Positions 1-6,963 of a DNA stretch of 35,962 nt are shown piece after piece (within the stretch, counting starts at the first letter, position 1; each line of letters opens with the position of its first letter). Source of the DNA: a bacterium. Its GTDB lineage: Bacteria > Chloroflexota > Dormibacteria > Dormibacterales > Dormibacteraceae. Where the stretch lies: NCBI GenBank assembly GCA_902812395.1, contig CADDZO010000009.1, forward strand, positions 1-35,962, read 5' to 3'. The notes beneath the pieces are model-generated. The model was not told the origin of the DNA. It did not search any database and saw only the letters and a list, made by a program, of their open reading frames with translations. Both the position numbers and the translations under genes were made by a program.

Positions 1-882
1 AGGCGTTGGCGGGCAAGATCGCGGAAGGAAAGGCCAGGATCCTCTCTGCCACCGTGTCGCGGACCGCCCAGCGGTGGTTCGTGTCTTTCGCCGTGGAGGT
101 TGAGCGTGAGGTCCCGGATCATCATCGGCGGCCCCAGACGGCGGTGGGCATCGATCTGGGGGTCTCGGCCCTGATCACGGCGGTGGACCATCGGGGTCGG
201 GTGATCCGGTTCCCCGGTCCCAAGCCGCTGAAGGCTGCGCTGCGGCGCCTCCGCCGAGCCTCGCGCGCCCATTCCGCAAAAAGACCGGCTCAGCCAACCG
301 CAGGAAGAGCGCGCGGCGGCTGGCGCGCATCCATGCCCGGATCGCCAACTGCCGTCTCGATGCCGTGCACAAGGCCACGACCTGGCTGGCTGCTCGATAT
401 GAGACGGTGGTGGTCGAGGACCTGAACGTGGCCGGGATGCTCTGTAACCGAAGACTGGCCCGGAGCGGACCAGTCCTTCGGGACCGTGCGGCACCAGCTC
501 GGCTCCAAGACCGTCTGGCGCGGCGGACGGCTGTTGGTTGCCGAGCGGTTCTTCCCCAGCTCCAAGACGTGCTCTGGCTGCGGGACGGTGAAAGCCAAGG
601 CTGGCCGAGCGCATCTTCCGCTGCGAGGGCTGCGGCCTGGTCATCGACCGGGACGTGAACGCTGCGAAGAACCTACTCGCGCTCGCCGTCAGTGGCAGAG
701 GGGCCTGTGGAGCCGAGGTAAGACCCAGCCGTGCTGGGCACACGGCGATGAAGCAGGAGGGGACCCCACGAAGCAGGCTTCGTGGGGAGCCCAAGCAGGA
801 ACCCGGCGCCGTGCAAGCGGATAAGACCGGGACCGCCACCGGGCAACCGGTGGCTGCGGGTCGGCTGGCTAATGCTCACTGA
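1..882 (+). pseudogene. tnpB: Decayed TnpB (IS200/IS605 family), copy 1
   Basis: Relic of the RuvC-like RNA-guided nuclease of IS200/IS605 elements; its 5' part lies left of the window. Read across frames it keeps the RuvC-I motif GIDLGV (about 147-164), the RuvC-II motif VVVEDLN (about 402-428), the zinc-ribbon pair CSGCG (571-585) and CEGCG, and the RuvC-III motif DRDVNAAKN (646-672). The frame breaks three times: near 275-285; near 465, where five bases are missing relative to the second copy at 6066; and at about 600, where one extra g separates the two halves of the zinc ribbon. The last break is shared exactly with the second copy. The final frame ends in TGA at 880-882. No TnpA is visible. 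The protein cannot be made in one piece, so it is non-functional unless recoded. Identification as TnpB is secure. Confidence 0.9.
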
Positions 883-894
883 TCCGCAACGGAG
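720..894 (+). ncRNA. Putative omega-RNA-like right end of TnpB copy 1
   Basis: The tnpB 3' tail and right end carry three successive hairpins: CCCAGC/GCTGGG at 724-738, a perfect 10-bp stem CCCCACGAAG with a four-base loop at 764-787, and an 8-bp stem GCCACCGG closed by a GCAA loop at 835-854. GCAA is a GNRA tetraloop, a typical RNA feature. All three recur in copy 2 at about the same spacing, and the third keeps pairing through a compensatory change. Similarity between copies ends near 894, which I take as the element's right end. In IS200/IS605 elements the guide RNA scaffold overlaps the tnpB 3' end and right end, so an omega-RNA relic is likely; alternatively these are only DNA hairpins for the transposase. 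Confidence 0.45.
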
Positions 895-936
895 TTGAAA
901 GCGGTGCGGCGCCGTCCTCGTGGCCGTGGAGCCGCC

Positions 937-1470
937 TCAGCTAACGCGTTCTTCTGCGATGCCGAGCCGGCGGGCCAGTCGCCGTAGCTCCCGGTCGGTT
1001 CGGTCGAGCCGGTAGAGGACCTGAAGCATCACCTCGTCCTGTGCCTCGAGATGGCTCATCAGCGCCTTCATCTCCTCTTCGTCCTTGACCTGCTGCTCGT
1101 AGTCCTGCTGGGCCTTGAGTCGGTCGCGGAGGGAAGCGCGGTTCAGCGCCATGAGGAGGAGTGAGGCCCAGATCGAGCACTCGAAGGTGAGGGCTAGGTT
1201 GAGGAGCAGGAATGGATAGGGATCCCAGTGGTGGAACTGGGCGGCCACGTTGAGGGCCAGCCAGGCCGCCATCAGCGCCGCCTGGATCGCCAGGAAGGTC
1301 CAGCTGCCGACCATGCGGCCCAGATCCTCGGCCACCCGCTGGGCGGGACCGAGGTGGCGGTCGGCCTCGCGATTGAGGTCGCGGACCGGAGGATGCTCGT
1401 GCTGGTGCCTGACCAGGGAGCGGGCGATGTCGTCAATCTCTCGTGCTATGGCCATTGTCGTGGCTCTCAT
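937..1470 (-). CDS. DUF1003 membrane protein
   Basis: A 177-residue protein matching DUF1003 in layout: a charged N-terminus with the R.AD element (DLNREADRHLGP), a GSW.F entry into the first membrane helix (about residues 55-77), the DPYPFLLLNL signature leading into the second helix (about 83-108), then LNRASLRDRLKAQQDYE, which matches the family's NR..kDR....D element, and a coiled, acidic/basic C-terminus to the end. The family is widespread, inner-membrane and of unknown biochemical role. The ATG at 1470 is preceded directly by GGAGGG, too close for normal use; the ATG at 1455 (MAIAREID) is a credible alternative. It is monocistronic, reads toward the TnpB relic, and has IS debris directly upstream. 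Family call is firm, function unknown. Confidence 0.85.
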   Translation of the reverse strand: MRATTMAIAREIDDIARSLVRHQHEHPPVRDLNREADRHLGPAQRVAEDLGRMVGSWTFLAIQAALMAAWLALNVAAQFHHWDPYPFLLLNLALTFECSIWASLLLMALNRASLRDRLKAQQDYEQQVKDEEEMKALMSHLEAQDEVMLQVLYRLDRTDRELRRLARRLGIAEERVS

Positions 1471-1976
1471 CCCTCCGTCTCAAGCCTTGCTGCCGGGCGG
1501 TGGAGTGTCCGGGAGCAGTATGGCGCCCAGGTCCAGCGTCTGGCAGTGGGTGGCGACCGGACAGGGCTGGGGCGGCGCGAACGAAGCCTTTTCCTGTTGG
1601 GCTGTCGCCGGCCTCCCTCTGGCGAGATGTGCGTGTTGGCCGCGCCGAGGTCGGGCCACGCGGCAGACCCGAGGCCCGACGTCCTGCGTGGAACTCACGC
1701 GGCTTCGGGGGTCGTGCCCTGGAGCAAGAGCGGGTCGCCCGCAGAAGAAGGGGACAGCCCCAGCCGAGGTCCCCGGCTGTTGTAGCGCATGCGCAAGCGT
1801 GTGGCGAGAGCCGAGGAGAGGCGGCGGTGGTTCTCCTCAGAACCCCCGGCCTTTTAGCCGTGGGGAGGTTCAGGGTATCGTCTTCTGCCGATGGCCCTGG
1901 CCCGTTCGCTCCCGGGAGCGGTAGGTTGGTCTGCGCCCGGGAGTGCTCAGGTGATCGGCTGCTGAGCCGGTCAACC
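1471..1976. other. Gene-free interval with IS debris
   Basis: About 500 bases between the divergent DUF1003 and AraC starts. No protein family is recognisable in any frame. The central part, 1703-1873, is an IS right-end repeat (separate entry). A TAGGTT box at 1922-1927 could serve the AraC gene but has no clear -35 partner. Confidence 0.5.
1703..1873 (+). repeat. IS200/IS605-type right-end repeat R1, copy a
   Basis: About 171 bases strongly similar to 30927-31098, including a block of roughly 45 identical bases beginning AGCGCATGCGCAAGCG. It ends in a hairpin (1840-1871): GAAC plus CCCCCGGC pair with GCCG-t-GGGG and GTTC around a short T-rich loop, a structure typical of subterminal palindromes at IS200/IS605 right ends. 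Similarity to the other copy stops just after GGTTCAG. No tnpB or tnpA reading frame accompanies it, so this is either a solo right end or a miniature derivative. Confidence 0.7.
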
Positions 1977-2387
1977 GTGAGCCGAGCCCGGGAGGAACGC
2001 AACCGGCGCATGCTCCGTGCGCGGGACGCGATGGACCTGGCCTATGCCAGGCCGCTCGACCTTGCTGCGCTGGCACGGATTGCGCACGTCTCCCAGGCCC
2101 ACTTCTGCCGAACGTTCCGAGCCACGTTCGGCGAGACTCCTCACCGCTATCTGCAACGCAGGCGGGTGGAGCGGGCGATGTTCTTCCTGCGGGAGACGGA
2201 CCGTCGGGTGACCGAGATCTGCCTGGACGTCGGGTTCGCAAGTCCGGGCACGTTCACGCGGACGTTCCGCGCCATCGTGGGTCAGACGCCGACTGAGTAC
2301 CGACGTCGGGCCGATGTCCGGGCTGCGCCCACGTGCCTGACGATGGCCTGGATGCGACCCAGCAGTTTTGGAGCAGCGGGCCTTTAG
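1977..2387 (+). CDS. Short AraC-family transcriptional regulator
   Basis: A 136-residue protein made almost entirely of the AraC/XylS DNA-binding domain. The first helix-turn-helix is in DLAALARIAHVSQAHFCRTF (about residues 30-50), followed by the typical FGETPHRYLQRRRVERA linker helix, and the second in VTEICLDVGFASPGTFTRTF with the closing G.TPTEYRR motif. There is no separate ligand-binding domain. The frame is open far upstream, but the family begins around EERNRRMLRARD, so I chose GTG 1977; ATG 2010 with GGAGG at 1991-1995 is an alternative. The VOC gene follows after 21 bases; AraC-like regulator plus VOC protein is a common pair, and the regulator plausibly controls it. Confidence 0.85.
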   Translation: MSRAREERNRRMLRARDAMDLAYARPLDLAALARIAHVSQAHFCRTFRATFGETPHRYLQRRRVERAMFFLRETDRRVTEICLDVGFASPGTFTRTFRAIVGQTPTEYRRRADVRAAPTCLTMAWMRPSSFGAAGL

Positions 2388-2396
2388 GGGCGAACA

Positions 2397-2402
2397 TAGC
2401 AT
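2397..2402 (+). promoter_or_regulatory. Candidate -10 box of a leaderless VOC transcript
   Basis: TAGCAT lies exactly six bases before the ATG at 2409, the spacing at which transcription would begin on the start codon. There is no Shine-Dalgarno sequence in between and no obvious -35 box. The same arrangement recurs at other starts in this window. Confidence 0.4.
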
Positions 2403-2408
2403 AGGGCC

Positions 2409-2846
2409 ATGCTCACCATCACGCATTCGAAGCTGTTCGTGCTGGATCAGGACCAGGCCCTCGACTTCTACGTCGGCAAGCTGGGATTCGTGGTGACGAT
2501 GGATGTCGATCTCGGGGGCGGCCGCTGGCTCACGGTGGCAGCTCCGGATGACCCTGACCACCACGTGTACCTGGAACGGCCGGGACCTCCTGCCATGGAC
2601 GAGGCGACCGCGGCACTGGTGCGTGATCTGTTGACCAGAGGGGGGCTCAGCTTCGGTATCGCTCTGGAGACCGATGATTGTCGCAAGCTCTACGAGACTT
2701 GGCGGGAGCGGGGGGTTGAGTTTACGCAGGAGCCGCTGGAGCACTCATACGGAATCGACTGTGGAGTCCGTGACCCCTTCGGGAATCAGATCCGGATCCT
2801 GCAGCCGGCACACCGCCGCTCACGAGTATCGGCCACGTCGAGCTGA
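2409..2846 (+). CDS. VOC (glyoxalase/bleomycin-resistance/dioxygenase) family protein
   Basis: A 145-residue protein with the two beta-alpha-beta-beta-beta units of the vicinal-oxygen-chelate fold. The first unit contains LFVLDQDQALDFYVGKLGF (residues about 9-27) and ends in the HHVYLERPG strand; the second contains IALETDDCRKLYETWRERGV and the closing GVRDPFGNQIRILQP, the classic C-terminal signature. Members bind a divalent metal and act on small molecules as lyases, dioxygenases or antibiotic-binding proteins; substrate cannot be told from sequence. It lies 21 bases after the AraC gene and also has its own candidate -10 box. Confidence 0.88.
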   Translation: MLTITHSKLFVLDQDQALDFYVGKLGFVVTMDVDLGGGRWLTVAAPDDPDHHVYLERPGPPAMDEATAALVRDLLTRGGLSFGIALETDDCRKLYETWRERGVEFTQEPLEHSYGIDCGVRDPFGNQIRILQPAHRRSRVSATSS

Positions 2847-3452
2847 TGTCGTGGACCTGCCTGGGCTGTCGGCCAGCGGTGCAGAATCCGCCCACGCCTG
2901 GGGCGGTGGTCCTCTTCGCCTTCTCCGGCGGGGAGCCGTCTGCCCGACGGAGAGCGGGGATAGCCCGACGGGATTTGGTCGCCGTACGGCGGTGGCGGCT
3001 TGTGAAGGAGCGGACCGTCGCCATCGACCCGCTGGTGGAGGCGCGCCTGGCGTCCGACCGCGATGGCGACAGGGCCTGCGTGCGGTTGCGCTTCTTCTCC
3101 GCGTTCCAGAGGGGCGAAGGTCGACTCCCGAGAACCGCTTCTTCTCGGCCTGGTACCGCCCCGGACACTTGGCCAGGCCCCGTTCCAGGCGTAGCGGTCC
3201 CCCCGACGTGGGGACGGAGCCTCCGCTCTTGGGCCACCGTGGGGTCGAGGGCGACCGGTACGCCTGGCGCAGCTCCTCCCGGTCGGCCCAGCCATCCTCT
3301 GGCAAAGGGATGCAATGGCCGGCCGCGTCTGCGGTCCAGCTCGCGGGATCCAGGGAGCGGGCCCTCAGGGCTGCACGCCCCGGGCGTTCGTGCTGCCGCG
3401 AACCGGCGTCTTCATCCCTCCCAGGACAGGTGAGCCTGGGTGCACGTGGGCC
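2847..3452. other. Gene-free interval
   Basis: About 600 bases between the VOC gene and the 3' end of the AlkA-like relic. Open frames exist on both strands because of the GC content, but none resembles a known family or shows conserved motif structure. I see no tRNA, terminator or clear repeat. It may be old decayed sequence. Confidence 0.4.
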
Positions 3453-3890
3453 TCAGGGGTCGACCCAGCTCCTGGTCAGATACAGCCGGAAGGCAAGCCC
3501 GTCATAACGTCCTAATCGGCGGAAGTGCCCCTGGATGCCCTGCTCGGATGTCTGGCGCCCTCTCAGCCTGGCATACGTTAGCCTGGTCCACGAGTCCAGG
3601 ATCAGCTTCCCGTACCGGCCCAGAGAGAGACCAGCATCACGTGCGCCGCCGCGTACGGGCCAACGCCGGGCAGGGCGGGCAAGCGTTTCTCCACCTCGGC
3701 GTCGGGCATGTCCGAATCGGTGAGCTGCTCCAGATCGATGCTTCCCTCTGCCACTCCCGTTGCCAGCCGCACGAGGTAGGGGCCCCTGTAGCCGCGCGCG
3801 CGACATCCCGGAGAACTCGGTGCCAGCGGCAGCCATTGCCGCCGGGGCGGGAAAGGCGCGGCCGCCACGTGACACCCGAGGCGCTCGACC
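3453..3890 (-). pseudogene. Decayed AlkA-like DNA-3-methyladenine glycosylase (HhH-GPD)
   Basis: On the minus strand, three frames join into the C-terminal part of an HhH-GPD base-excision glycosylase: GRAFPAPAAMA, then ARGYRGPYLVRLA, the helix-hairpin-helix LPALPGVGPYAAAHVML, then GRYGKLILDSWTR containing the catalytic aspartate, and FRRLGRYDGLAFRLYLTRSW before the TGA at 3453-3455. Breaks lie near 3800 and near 3620; the latter sits in a TC-dinucleotide run and looks like a two-base slip. The N-terminal half is not recognisable upstream of about 3890. The active-site helix is split from the aspartate, so the gene is dead unless the breaks are sequencing errors. Confidence 0.75.
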
Positions 3891-4198
3891 GAGGTGACGG
3901 ATCCTGCGGCGGAGCGAGGGGAGGTCGAAACCCGATCCTGGATCCTCGGTCTTTTCTCATTTCTCATTCTCAGGCAGGACCCGGGTGGCTCGATCGCCCC
4001 CGCGTTGGGAAACCTTGCTCGGTGATGGGACGGCGGATCGTGCAGGCTTCTGCGCCATCGCGAAGGAACGGTTGCGGTCGAACGGAAGCGCCATCGGGTC
4101 TATGGTACATGTGTTCGACAACGGGCTGGAGCAGATGGTCGGAGGCACGAGTGGTGACGTATATTGACCGTCGAGGGAGCGCGGTGGAGGCCGAACTC
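3891..4198. other. Gene-free interval upstream of the TfoX-C gene
   Basis: About 300 bases without a recognisable gene. It contains a short imperfect tandem of TCTCATT units at about 3955-3972 and a TATATT box at about 4159-4164 that could be a -10 element for the TfoX-C gene, although no good -35 box precedes it. Confidence 0.35.
4186..4190 (+). promoter_or_regulatory. Ribosome binding site that sets the TfoX-C start
   Basis: GGAGG lies eight bases before the ATG at 4199. The reading frame is open for hundreds of bases upstream, so this site decides the start. Confidence 0.65.
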
Positions 4199-4495
4199 AT
4201 GGCGGAGCGGGGGAGGCCAGAGGGCGCTGGCGCCTCGGACAGCCTGGAGGCCTTGAAGAACCTTGGCCCGCTGTCGGCGGCGAGGTTGCGTTCGGTTGGC
4301 ATCAACAGTCCGGAGGAGCTGCGGGAGGTGGGAGCGGTACGTGCGTATCTGAAGCTGAAGCGGGCCTACCCCTATGAGACCACGGTCATTGCTCTCTACG
4401 CGCTCGAGGGTGCGATCACCGACACCCGCTGGTACGCGCTTCCTGACGAGACCAAGGCGAGGCTGCGCAAGCAGGTCGTGCTCTGGCGGGGCTGA
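4199..4495 (+). CDS. Stand-alone TfoX C-terminal-domain protein
   Basis: A 98-residue protein matching the TfoX C-terminal domain: LKNLGPLSAARLRSVGI (about residues 19-35) and SPEELREVGAVRAYLKLK form the helix-hairpin-helix-like core, and LYALEGAITDTRWYALPDETKARLRKQV gives the family's closing gAl.g..W..lp...k..L element. In Gammaproteobacteria TfoX regulates competence, but single-domain versions are common elsewhere and have no assigned role. The start follows a good ribosome binding site. It is 35 bases ahead of thiO on the same strand and could be co-transcribed with it. Confidence 0.8.
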   Translation: MAERGRPEGAGASDSLEALKNLGPLSAARLRSVGINSPEELREVGAVRAYLKLKRAYPYETTVIALYALEGAITDTRWYALPDETKARLRKQVVLWRG

Positions 4496-4530
4496 GGCCC
4501 AGCCTCCCCCTGGTGAAACAATGTTGGGGG

Positions 4531-5544
4531 ATGGCAGCCATCGCTGTGATCGGTGGCGGAGTGATCGGCTGTGCCGTGGCCGAGCGACTCAGTCGGGAAC
4601 GGCGGCACCGCGTCGTCCTCCTGGAGCGGGACGTGGTCGGTTCGCACGCGTCGGGAGCGGCGGCCGGCCTGCTCGCACCCCATAGCGAGCATCTTGGCGA
4701 TGACACCCCTGGCGGTGCCAGCCTCGCTCTCTATCCGGAGCTGGTCGCCCGGGTGGAGCGCTGCGGCATTGGGGTGGAGTTCCGTACCCAGGAGACGTTG
4801 GCGCTGGCACTCAGCGTCGAGGAGGAGCGGGTGCTCCGCCAATCGTCAGCTTCGTGGTTGGACGCGGCCGACGCCTGCCAACGGGAGCCCGAGGTGAGCC
4901 CATCCATTCTCGGTGCGGCCGTCTACGAGGAGGCCCAGGTCACGCCGATCCGGCTTGTCCATGCCCTGGCCCGAACCGCGGTGCGGCAGGGCGCCGAGAT
5001 CAGAGAGGGCACGCCGGTGTGGGGGCTGTCGGTCCACGCTGATCTGGTCGGATCCGTCCAGGTCCCCGGCGATTCAGTCCAAGCCGACTGGGTGGTGCTG
5101 GCAGCGGGGCCCTGGAGCTCTGGGTTGGCCGCGCCCCTGGGCGTCACCCTCGATGTTCGCCCCAGCCGTGGCCAGCTGGTGACGCTCCGCCCGGTTCGCG
5201 CCTGCCTCAGCCGGGTCGTGGTCTGGCGCGGTTGCTACCTGGTGCCCAAGCCGGACGGCACGATCGTGGCCGGAAGCACCGAGGAGGAGGTCGGGTTCGA
5301 TCCTCGGCCGACGGCGGAGGGCGTCGGCGGTCTGCTCCGGTTCGCCGCCCGAGCGGTACCCGTTCTGGGGTCGGCCACCGTGGAGCGGGTCTGGGCGGCC
5401 CTCCGGCCGGCGACACCCGACGGTCGCCCGGTGGTCGGGCCCGCCCCCGGAATTTCCAACCTGCTCCTGGCCACCGGCCACAACCGCAACGGCATCCTGC
5501 TCGCGCCCCTGACTGCCGAGCTGGTGGCGAGGGCCATACCATGA
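4531..5544 (+). CDS. thiO: Glycine oxidase ThiO-like FAD-dependent oxidoreductase
   Basis: A 337-residue D-amino-acid-oxidase-type flavoprotein. The N-terminal dinucleotide-binding motif is VIGGGVIGCAVAERL followed by the acidic LLERD; a second FAD contact region is VVLAAGPWSSGLA; the C-terminus has WAALRPATPDGRPVVGP and ATGHNRNGILLAPLTAELVA, the signature shared by ThiO enzymes. ThiO oxidises glycine to the imine used to build the thiazole of thiamin. No thiS, thiG or thiE lies nearby, so sarcosine or another amine as substrate remains possible. ATG 4531 is chosen by homology; an in-frame GTG at 4513 exists. The next gene overlaps by ATGA, implying translational coupling. Confidence 0.82.
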   Translation: MAAIAVIGGGVIGCAVAERLSRERRHRVVLLERDVVGSHASGAAAGLLAPHSEHLGDDTPGGASLALYPELVARVERCGIGVEFRTQETLALALSVEEERVLRQSSASWLDAADACQREPEVSPSILGAAVYEEAQVTPIRLVHALARTAVRQGAEIREGTPVWGLSVHADLVGSVQVPGDSVQADWVVLAAGPWSSGLAAPLGVTLDVRPSRGQLVTLRPVRACLSRVVVWRGCYLVPKPDGTIVAGSTEEEVGFDPRPTAEGVGGLLRFAARAVPVLGSATVERVWAALRPATPDGRPVVGPAPGISNLLLATGHNRNGILLAPLTAELVARAIP

Positions 5545-5822
5545 CCGCCGTGGTGGAGGTGGAGGCAACGCCGTACGACGACGGCTGGCAGTGCTCGGTC
5601 GAGGTTGTGGAGGGCCTCGATCGGACCCATCGCCTGGTTCGCCTGGGTCGTGACGATCTGGAGCGCTGGGGAAGGTCGGGTGAAGGGCCAGAGGGCTTGG
5701 TTCGTCGTTCCTTCCAGTTGTTGCTGGCCCGCGAACCCGCGGGCCAGATCCTCCGCAGCTTCGATCTGCCCGTGATCCAGCGGTACTTCCCGGAATTCGA
5801 CCGGGAGATCCGTACGCCATGA
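5541..5822 (+). CDS. Conserved hypothetical protein, thiO operon
   Basis: A 93-residue soluble protein whose ATG overlaps the thiO stop (ATGA). It begins with a beta-rich stretch (VEVEATPYDDGWQCSVEVVEG), has a charged middle, and a conserved-looking C-terminal half: PEGLVRRSFQLLLAREPAGQILRSFDLPVI followed by RYFPEFDREI. I recognise this pattern from small uncharacterised proteins in actinobacterial and related genomes, but no function is known to me. No signal peptide, membrane helix or metal motif is visible. Its tight coupling on both sides (it overlaps the next gene by four bases as well) supports real translation. Confidence 0.7.
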   Translation: MTAVVEVEATPYDDGWQCSVEVVEGLDRTHRLVRLGRDDLERWGRSGEGPEGLVRRSFQLLLAREPAGQILRSFDLPVIQRYFPEFDREIRTP

Positions 5823-6004
5823 AGGTTCCCGTCCCCTGCTTCGAGTGCGGCACCTTCACCATGGTCATGGACCTGACGAAGGACCACCAGCACATCGCCT
5901 GCGAGCGCTGCGAGCGGGTGTGGTGCGCGGTTTGCCTGGGTCGGTTCGAGGTGAAGATCTCGGAGGAGTGGCTCAAGCGCCAGCGGGTGGCGCATCTGAA
6001 CTGA
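5819..6004 (+). CDS. Small zinc-ribbon-like protein
   Basis: A 61-residue protein starting in an ATGA overlap with the preceding gene. It carries three CxxC pairs or near pairs: CFEC at residues 7-10, CERC at about 28-31, and CAVC at about 36-39, with a conserved-looking WCAVCLGRFEVKI stretch and a basic end. The cysteine spacing suggests one zinc ribbon or a compact two-site zinc fold, probably for protein or nucleic-acid contact. It is the last gene of the thiO group; sixty bases later the second TnpB relic begins. The function is unknown. Confidence 0.65.
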   Translation: MKVPVPCFECGTFTMVMDLTKDHQHIACERCERVWCAVCLGRFEVKISEEWLKRQRVAHLN

Positions 6005-6065
6005 TCTGCCGGACTGGAGGGATCTGAGGGGCCGTTGGTCGCGCGCTGCTCGGGGCGGCGCAGCC

Positions 6066-6788
6066 TTGGACGTGACTGCTGCAGGTGACGCCGACCGGGC
6101 GTGCGAGTGGCAGTACCTGGTCGGTGAGGTCCCGGAACGCCATCGGCGGCCCCAGACGGCGGTGGGCATCGATCTTGGGGTCTCTTCCCTGATCACGGCG
6201 GTGGACCACCAAGGCAAGGTGATACGGTTTCCCGGTCCCAGACCTCTTCGGGCTGCGCTGCGGCGCCTACGTCGCGCCTCGGGCGCCCATTCCCGCAAGC
6301 AGAAGAGGACCTGAACCTGGCCGGGATGGTCCGCAACCGGAGATTGGCCAGAAGCCTGGCCGACCAGTCCTTCGGGACCATACGGCACCAGCTCGGCTAC
6401 AAGACCGTCTGGGGCGGCGGTCGGCGAATGGTTGCCGAGCGGTTCTTCACCAGCTCCAAGACATGCTCTGGCTGCGGGGCGGTGAACGCCAAGGCTGGCC
6501 GAACGCGTCTTTCGCTGCGAGGGCTGTGGCTTGGTCATCGACGGGGACGTGAACGCCGCGAAGAACCTGCTAGCGCTCGCCGTCAGTGGCAGAGGGGCCT
6601 GTGGAGCCGAGATAAGGCCCACCACTGCTGGGCGTGCGGCGATGAAGCAGGAGGGGACCCCACGAAGCAGGCTTCGTGGGGACCCCAAGCAGGGACCCGG
6701 CGCCGCACACGCGGGTAAGACCGGGACCGCCGCCGGGCAACCGGCGGCTCCGGGTCGACTGACTCATGCTCACTGGCCGGCAATGGAG
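6066..6788 (+). pseudogene. tnpB: Decayed TnpB (IS200/IS605 family), copy 2
   Basis: A second, shorter relic of the element at 1-894. It keeps HRRPQTAVGIDLGVSSLITAVD (RuvC-I), then loses about 140 bases relative to copy 1, so that the RuvC-I half runs into EDLNLAGM out of frame near 6305. The next segment holds CSGCG and breaks at about 6490 by the same extra g in GCCAAGGCTGGCC as copy 1; the last segment holds CEGCGLVIDGDVNAAKN and the tail. The N-terminus before the GEVPERH region is missing. No stop equivalent to that of copy 1 is kept. Similarity with copy 1 stops around 6788. It cannot encode a working nuclease. Confidence 0.9.
6608..6788 (+). ncRNA. Putative omega-RNA-like right end of TnpB copy 2
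   Basis: Three hairpins match those at 720-894: GCCCA/TGGGC at 6617-6633, the identical 10-bp CCCCACGAAG stem at 6658-6681, and GCCGCCGG with a GCAA loop at 6729-6748. In the last one, pair A838-T851 of copy 1 is replaced by G6732-C6745, so the pairing is preserved while the sequence changed. The sequence after 6788 (ACCATTAGGC) would be the guide position if this once specified an omega-RNA. Confidence 0.45.
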
Positions 6789-6963
6789 ACCATTAGGCAT
6801 CCGGACGCGGCAGCGACGAGGGGACCGCCTTGTGTCGTGAGGAACCGGCTGCAGCGGCCGCCATCCGGGGATGGAGCAGGTCGCGGCTCGCAGGCCACTG
6901 CGGCGCCTGGCGGTGGAGCCGACCAATCCCGAGGTGATGGGTAGTGGTGCGCGAGAGAAGGTC

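Follow-up and report, generated by a model that had tools for sequence, protein, structure and literature searches.

The DNA analysed here, called the window, is a stretch of 35,962 nucleotides covering positions 1 to 35,962 of contig CADDZO010000009.1 (assembly GCA_902812395.1) from a member of the Dormibacteraceae, Chloroflexota. It contains two copies of an IS607-type insertion sequence (IS) with broken tnpB genes, and near the 3' end of each tnpB relic lies a hairpin with a GCAA loop. These hairpins are helix 3 of the Rfam family RF03015, which here very probably forms the core of the scaffold of an IS607 TnpB guide RNA (omega-RNA or reRNA). A sequence-only reading of the window had proposed an omega-RNA-type scaffold, and this is supported by the RF03015 match, the IS607 TnpB next to it, the constant right end on the 3' side followed by variable flanks, and covariation across genera. 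Direct reading gave for copy 1 the stem strands GCCACCGG (835-842) and CCGGTGGC (847-854) around the loop GCAA at 843-846, and for copy 2 GCCGCCGG (6729-6736) and CCGGCGGC (6741-6748) around GCAA at 6737-6740. Both hairpins were located exactly in the earlier reading, and the exchange of A838-T851 for G6732-C6745 is a true two-sided change, with eight of eight pairs intact in both copies. Two copies alone are weak evidence for an RNA structure. The RNA features of the window are:

835..854, + strand: GCAA-capped hairpin of copy 1, helix 3 of RF03015 (sequence, cmscan, covariation)
6729..6748, + strand: GCAA-capped hairpin of copy 2 with the compensated pair 6732-6745 (sequence, cmscan)
792..858, + strand: RF03015 core of copy 1 with helix 1 (802-806/827-831), helix 2 (809-812/817-820) and helix 3 (835-842/847-854) (cmscan, covariation)
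6686..6752, + strand: RF03015 core of copy 2 (cmscan)
724..738, + strand: 5' hairpin CCCAGC-CGT-GCTGGG upstream of RF03015 (outside counterparts CCCGC..GCGGG and CCCGG..CCGGG)
856..887, + strand: terminal stem, GCGGGTC 856-862 with GATCCGC 881-887 (copy counts, minimum free energy fold)

Over the full model, the RNA of copy 1 matched RF03015 (Transposase-2 RNA) with 59.7 bits (cmscan, E-value 1.1e-11) and that of copy 2 with 47.2 bits (1.4e-8), both above the gathering threshold of 42.7 bits. The GCAA hairpin is the 3' helix of the model, helix 3; a third small hairpin mentioned in the earlier reading is probably helix 2. Model and window RNAs share all three helices, the GCAA loop, a score above the cut-off and the position beside a transposon gene; they differ in a palindrome inserted just 5' of the model region in the window copies. 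In loci of other genomes, the 69-nt model has a 5' hairpin in front of it and a terminal stem behind it that extends to CAACGG. At least six of the seven terminal-stem pairs were kept in 79 of 84 scored copies of the host genome, and the variant GTGGATC/GATCCGC, found in 8 copies, is compensated. Copy 2 has one mismatch in its 5' hairpin (6618-6632) and forms five of the seven terminal-stem pairs; helix 1 and the terminal stem are gone from its minimum free energy fold.

Covariation was scored on alignments that had been built on sequence and not fitted to structure. The alignment across genera comprised 27 sequences, 8 from the host genome and 19 from other genomes. The whole-structure covariation score was 0.434, compared to 0.152 for shuffled alignments and 0.044-0.109 for controls with slid partners; it exceeds the shuffled mean about threefold and the best slid control about fourfold. 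Since all eight pairs of helix 3 change on both sides once outside sequences are included, and 88.2 % of the cells pair, the RNA structure is real. The within-genome case is modest. Among 55 distinct sequences of the host genome, 96.2 % of the cells pair versus 94.9 % after shuffling, and four helix 3 pairs show two-sided changes versus 1.7 ± 0.8 in shuffled alignments (10/500). Pair 836/853 is C-G in 35 distinct sequences, U-A in 6 and U·G in 3, with non-pairs in 11. Stem changes without compensation, regarded in the earlier reading as a refutation, did occur in part of the copies: 63 of 92 host copies have all eight pairs intact, and in 17 the second pair alone is an uncompensated C·A. The loop reads GCAA in 82 copies, ACAA in 4 and GCAG in 1, and is lost in 5. 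A divergent sub-lineage (L134, L135, L137, L138, L139) has a helix 3 without the GCAA loop that is 4 nt shorter (CACC-GATC-GGTG).

The 19 distinct outside sequences come from at least seven actinobacterial genera; hosts were Micromonospora, Actinopolymorpha, Trebonia, Nonomuraea, Actinoplanes, Amorphoplanes, Bifidobacterium and further actinobacteria. RF03015 is located 3' of a homologous tnpB, usually overlapping an intact open reading frame (ORF). Most of these ORFs contain the RuvC motifs GxDxG, EDL and DRDxNA and read through the RNA, ending in ...EPGTAxAGxTGT..., so that catalytically complete TnpB proteins adjoin RF03015 in outside relatives. Every outside locus has an AACGG end followed by unrelated, variable sequence. 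A search of 100 relatives for RF03015 yielded only two genomes besides the host, both below the cut-off.

The host assembly consists of 381 contigs, the window being contig C9. RF03015 was found at 93 places in it (E ≤ 0.001), of which 83 pass the curated cut-off, and the hairpin pattern at 88 places with up to three mismatches. The genome has about 75 left ends and about 92 right-end RNAs; the majority of the copies are therefore probably almost complete, with their parts on different contigs. The full element, reconstructed from sister copies, has about 1,995 bp: a left flank GGGG, the left end TCGGTAACTGTTGGCG..., tnpA, tnpB with a GTG start, the RNA and the right end CAACGG. TnpA of a sister copy on C104 is a serine recombinase matching the IS607 transposase equivalog NF033518 (166.6 bits, cut-off 110) and PF00239; an assignment to IS200/IS605 is ruled out by this recombinase. 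TnpB of a sister copy on C71 matched NF038280 (IS607_TnpB) with 387.2 bits (cut-off 350). No tnpA was seen beside either window copy. Among the distinct right-end junctions, 82 of 84 end in GG and continue into unique flanks; the left flank was GGGG in most of 11 cases, the flanks being otherwise unrelated. Both copies in the window are old insertions of this common mobile element with a broken tnpB. In one further copy (L073, C23:23400-25518), tnpB is mostly deleted; its start remains, as do the RNA and the right end, and 5' of the copy there is a left end. This copy is possibly a non-autonomous derivative. The ends of the window copies are:

891..892, + strand: GG crossover dinucleotide at the right end of copy 1 (junction comparison)
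893..912, + strand: expected guide segment of copy 1, a unique host flank (position predicted from the IS607 reRNA architecture, PMC10711439)
6785..6786, + strand: GG at the right end of copy 2, where the terminal motif is CAATGG; the guide is expected at 6787-6806 (junction comparison)

Transcription, processing, binding by TnpB and cleavage would proceed as follows. The 3' end of the tnpB message would give rise to the RNA, which would comprise the 5' hairpin, the two-stem core, the GCAA hairpin and the terminal stem; it would end with CAACGG at the right end and continue into the host flank as guide. TnpB would bind this RNA and cut guide-matched DNA beside a GGGG-type motif, and the cutting would restore the element at the sites it had left. 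The RNA ends in the window copies would have been kept mainly through descent from a repeatedly transposed right end. ISXfa1, an IS607 system with a tested TnpB, has a reRNA of about 150 nt across the right end, depletion of a GGG motif and a GG crossover; IS607 TnpA and TnpB, an RNA across the right end, the GG crossover and a G-rich motif are common to both systems, while the TnpB copies of the present host are mostly frameshifted (PMC10711439). In the RAGATH-18 group of IS607 TnpBs, e.g., ISFba1, a conserved structured RNA, first catalogued as an orphan motif, also lies on the 3' side of tnpB, with a reRNA separate from the ORF and a motif that is not the same as RF03015 (PMC11061315).

Both tnpB genes of the window are relics, and they share a frameshift in the zinc finger:

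1..720, + strand: tnpB relic of copy 1 (IS607 TnpB), 5' cut by the contig end, several frameshifts (PF01385 and PF07282 matches; 69 % identity to P0001 with a TGA)
6124..6615, + strand: tnpB relic of copy 2, 5'-truncated, with an internal deletion (sequence comparison, domain matches)
597..606, + strand: shared zinc-finger frameshift of copy 1, reading AAGGCTGGCC, where in-frame copies have AAGCTGTCCCTTGCC or a close variant (site alignment of all fetched copies)
6491..6500, + strand: shared zinc-finger frameshift of copy 2 (site alignment)

The truncation of copy 1 is the edge of the contig and not decay, as the window begins at position 1 of C9. The frameshift places the DRDVNAA segment and the last catalytic aspartate of TnpB out of frame. 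Copies compared at this site include L107, L105, L110 and L109; the element is still present in about 90 copies.

Several observations weigh against the guide-RNA interpretation or its activity in this host. The window copies have no catalytically complete TnpB adjacent to the RNA, and among the 55 distinct copies in which the zinc finger could be scored, AAGGCTGGCC or a one-base variant was present in 47, both window copies included. Neither the listed TnpB stretches of the assembly nor the copies with an in-frame zinc finger contained an intact tnpB, an absence that is unproven because contigs break inside copies. Helix 3 is broken or shortened, with at least one broken pair or a gap, in 29 of the 92 copies. 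The pseudoknot required in the ISXfa1 reRNA between guide-proximal bases and an apical loop was not identified here, with no candidates counted, and the RNA overlaps the tnpB ORF, unlike the RAGATH-18-derived reRNA. The RNA may be idle in the present host and active in relatives. The missing complete TnpB weakens the case for activity in the host but leaves the identification of the RNA untouched.

The sequence-only reading went further and held that the RNA was kept while the nuclease gene decayed, having a value independent of the protein. As a whole this lacks support: the RNA shares sequence with the tnpB 3' end and with the right end on which TnpA depends, and therefore travels with the element. 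For IS607 transposition tnpA alone is needed (PMC6188088), thus copies with a dead tnpB can spread. A narrow part of the claim finds some support in the compensated change from C-G to U-A at 836/853 in copies with frameshifted tnpB (few independent events); against the claim as a whole speak the damaged stems, the size of the family and an RNA diversity of 0.040-0.086 per site per 75 bp, a span that tnpB also covers (0.038-0.124). Exchange between copies is likely, and TnpB may be supplied in trans. We consider it very unlikely that the host has selected a role without a cutting TnpB, either the guiding of a truncated, non-cutting TnpB or a function of the RNA alone, that was kept during gene decay. 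The compensated U-A variant would fit such a role, as would an excess of silent singleton variants before the frameshift (78 silent to 123 nonsilent, ratio 0.63 versus a neutral 0.40), a suggestive count from shallow coverage with possible exchange between copies; after the frameshift, singletons showed no codon-position bias, again at shallow coverage. However, the insertion sites are all different, the copies have the appearance of typical IS insertions, the RNA is about as diverse as tnpB, and stems are broken in many copies. It is unlikely, too, that the IS607 lineage reached its about 90 copies after TnpB had lost the zinc finger and the last aspartate, with the N-terminal part of TnpB and the RNA fold under selection and a non-cutting complex kept for binding guide-matched sites.

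Two other explanations concern the covariation itself. The hairpin could act as DNA, as a recognition or folding element of the right end for the TnpA recombinase, with the covariation reflecting the symmetry of a DNA site. Its distance from the right end is 38-57 bp, and IS607 TnpA binds the transposon ends; yet IS607 elements lack terminal inverted repeats (PMC6188088), G-U pairs are tolerated at several stem positions, pairing is kept despite widely differing stem sequences among genera, and RF03015 adjoins tnpB in the outside loci examined, which together leave this explanation only a slim chance. Least credible is that coding constraint produced the covariation as a by-product, the RNA being located inside the tnpB frame. 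The ORF does continue through the RNA in most outside loci, but the two-sided changes affect all eight pairs and the slid-partner controls fall far below the observed score. The preferred interpretation remains the guide-RNA scaffold of an IS607 TnpB.

The sequence-only reading had also counted a hairpin with the identical sequence CCCCACGAAGCAGGCTTCGTGGGG at 764-787 and 6658-6681 as a part of the scaffold. It is instead a separate palindromic insert that occurs at other sites as well:

758..799, + strand: 42-bp in-frame palindromic insertion of copy 1, core 764-787, between AAGCAGG direct repeats (absent in L071, L086, L087, L091 and the outside loci)
6652..6693, + strand: palindromic insertion of copy 2, core 6658-6681 (copy comparison)

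A scaffold role of 764-787 is ruled out: the palindrome is missing from several copies and from all outside loci, occupies two other sites in the element and is dispersed in relatives. Copies at C4, C244, C261 and C11:16363 are cleanly without the insert, and those on C4 and C244 match RF03015 better than any other place in the genome (70 bits). By translation, the same palindrome is inserted in frame after the first codons of tnpB, where 38 places match the context, and near the tnpB end. The palindrome CCCCACGAAGCNNGCTTCGTGGGG hence appears as an in-frame insertion at three sites of one IS607 element (window copies; L022, L138, L141, L130, L135), and the palindromes sampled in the host were all inside the element. 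In a relative of the same genus (L251, G001:C198), a C-terminal stretch of TnpB adjoins two palindromes of the same type. Most likely, the palindrome is a dispersed repeat that entered the transposon and was then amplified with it, because family relatives contain identical or nearly identical palindromes, including relatives in which no relative of the element's TnpB was found (8 copies in G005, 5 in G020), and the reversed pattern used as control gave zero matches in all 121 genomes. The palindromic elements of Rickettsia are presumably similar, being palindromic repeats in frame in a protein gene with copies dispersed in related genomes; the window palindrome differs in occupying three sites of one mobile element. 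The identity of the palindrome between the window copies is therefore uninformative about the guide RNA.

A literature search revealed no paper naming RF03015, most subscription papers being outside its scope; the work of Weinberg in 2017 is reportedly the source of many such RNA motifs. RF03015, so far known by a generic name only, can now be linked with a particular system: it is probably the guide-RNA scaffold of the IS607 TnpB nucleases common in actinobacteria. The likely full extent of the RNA includes the 5' hairpin, the core, the GCAA hairpin, the terminal stem and the CAACGG end. The palindrome carries a warning for such families: conservation within a repeat family need not mean function.

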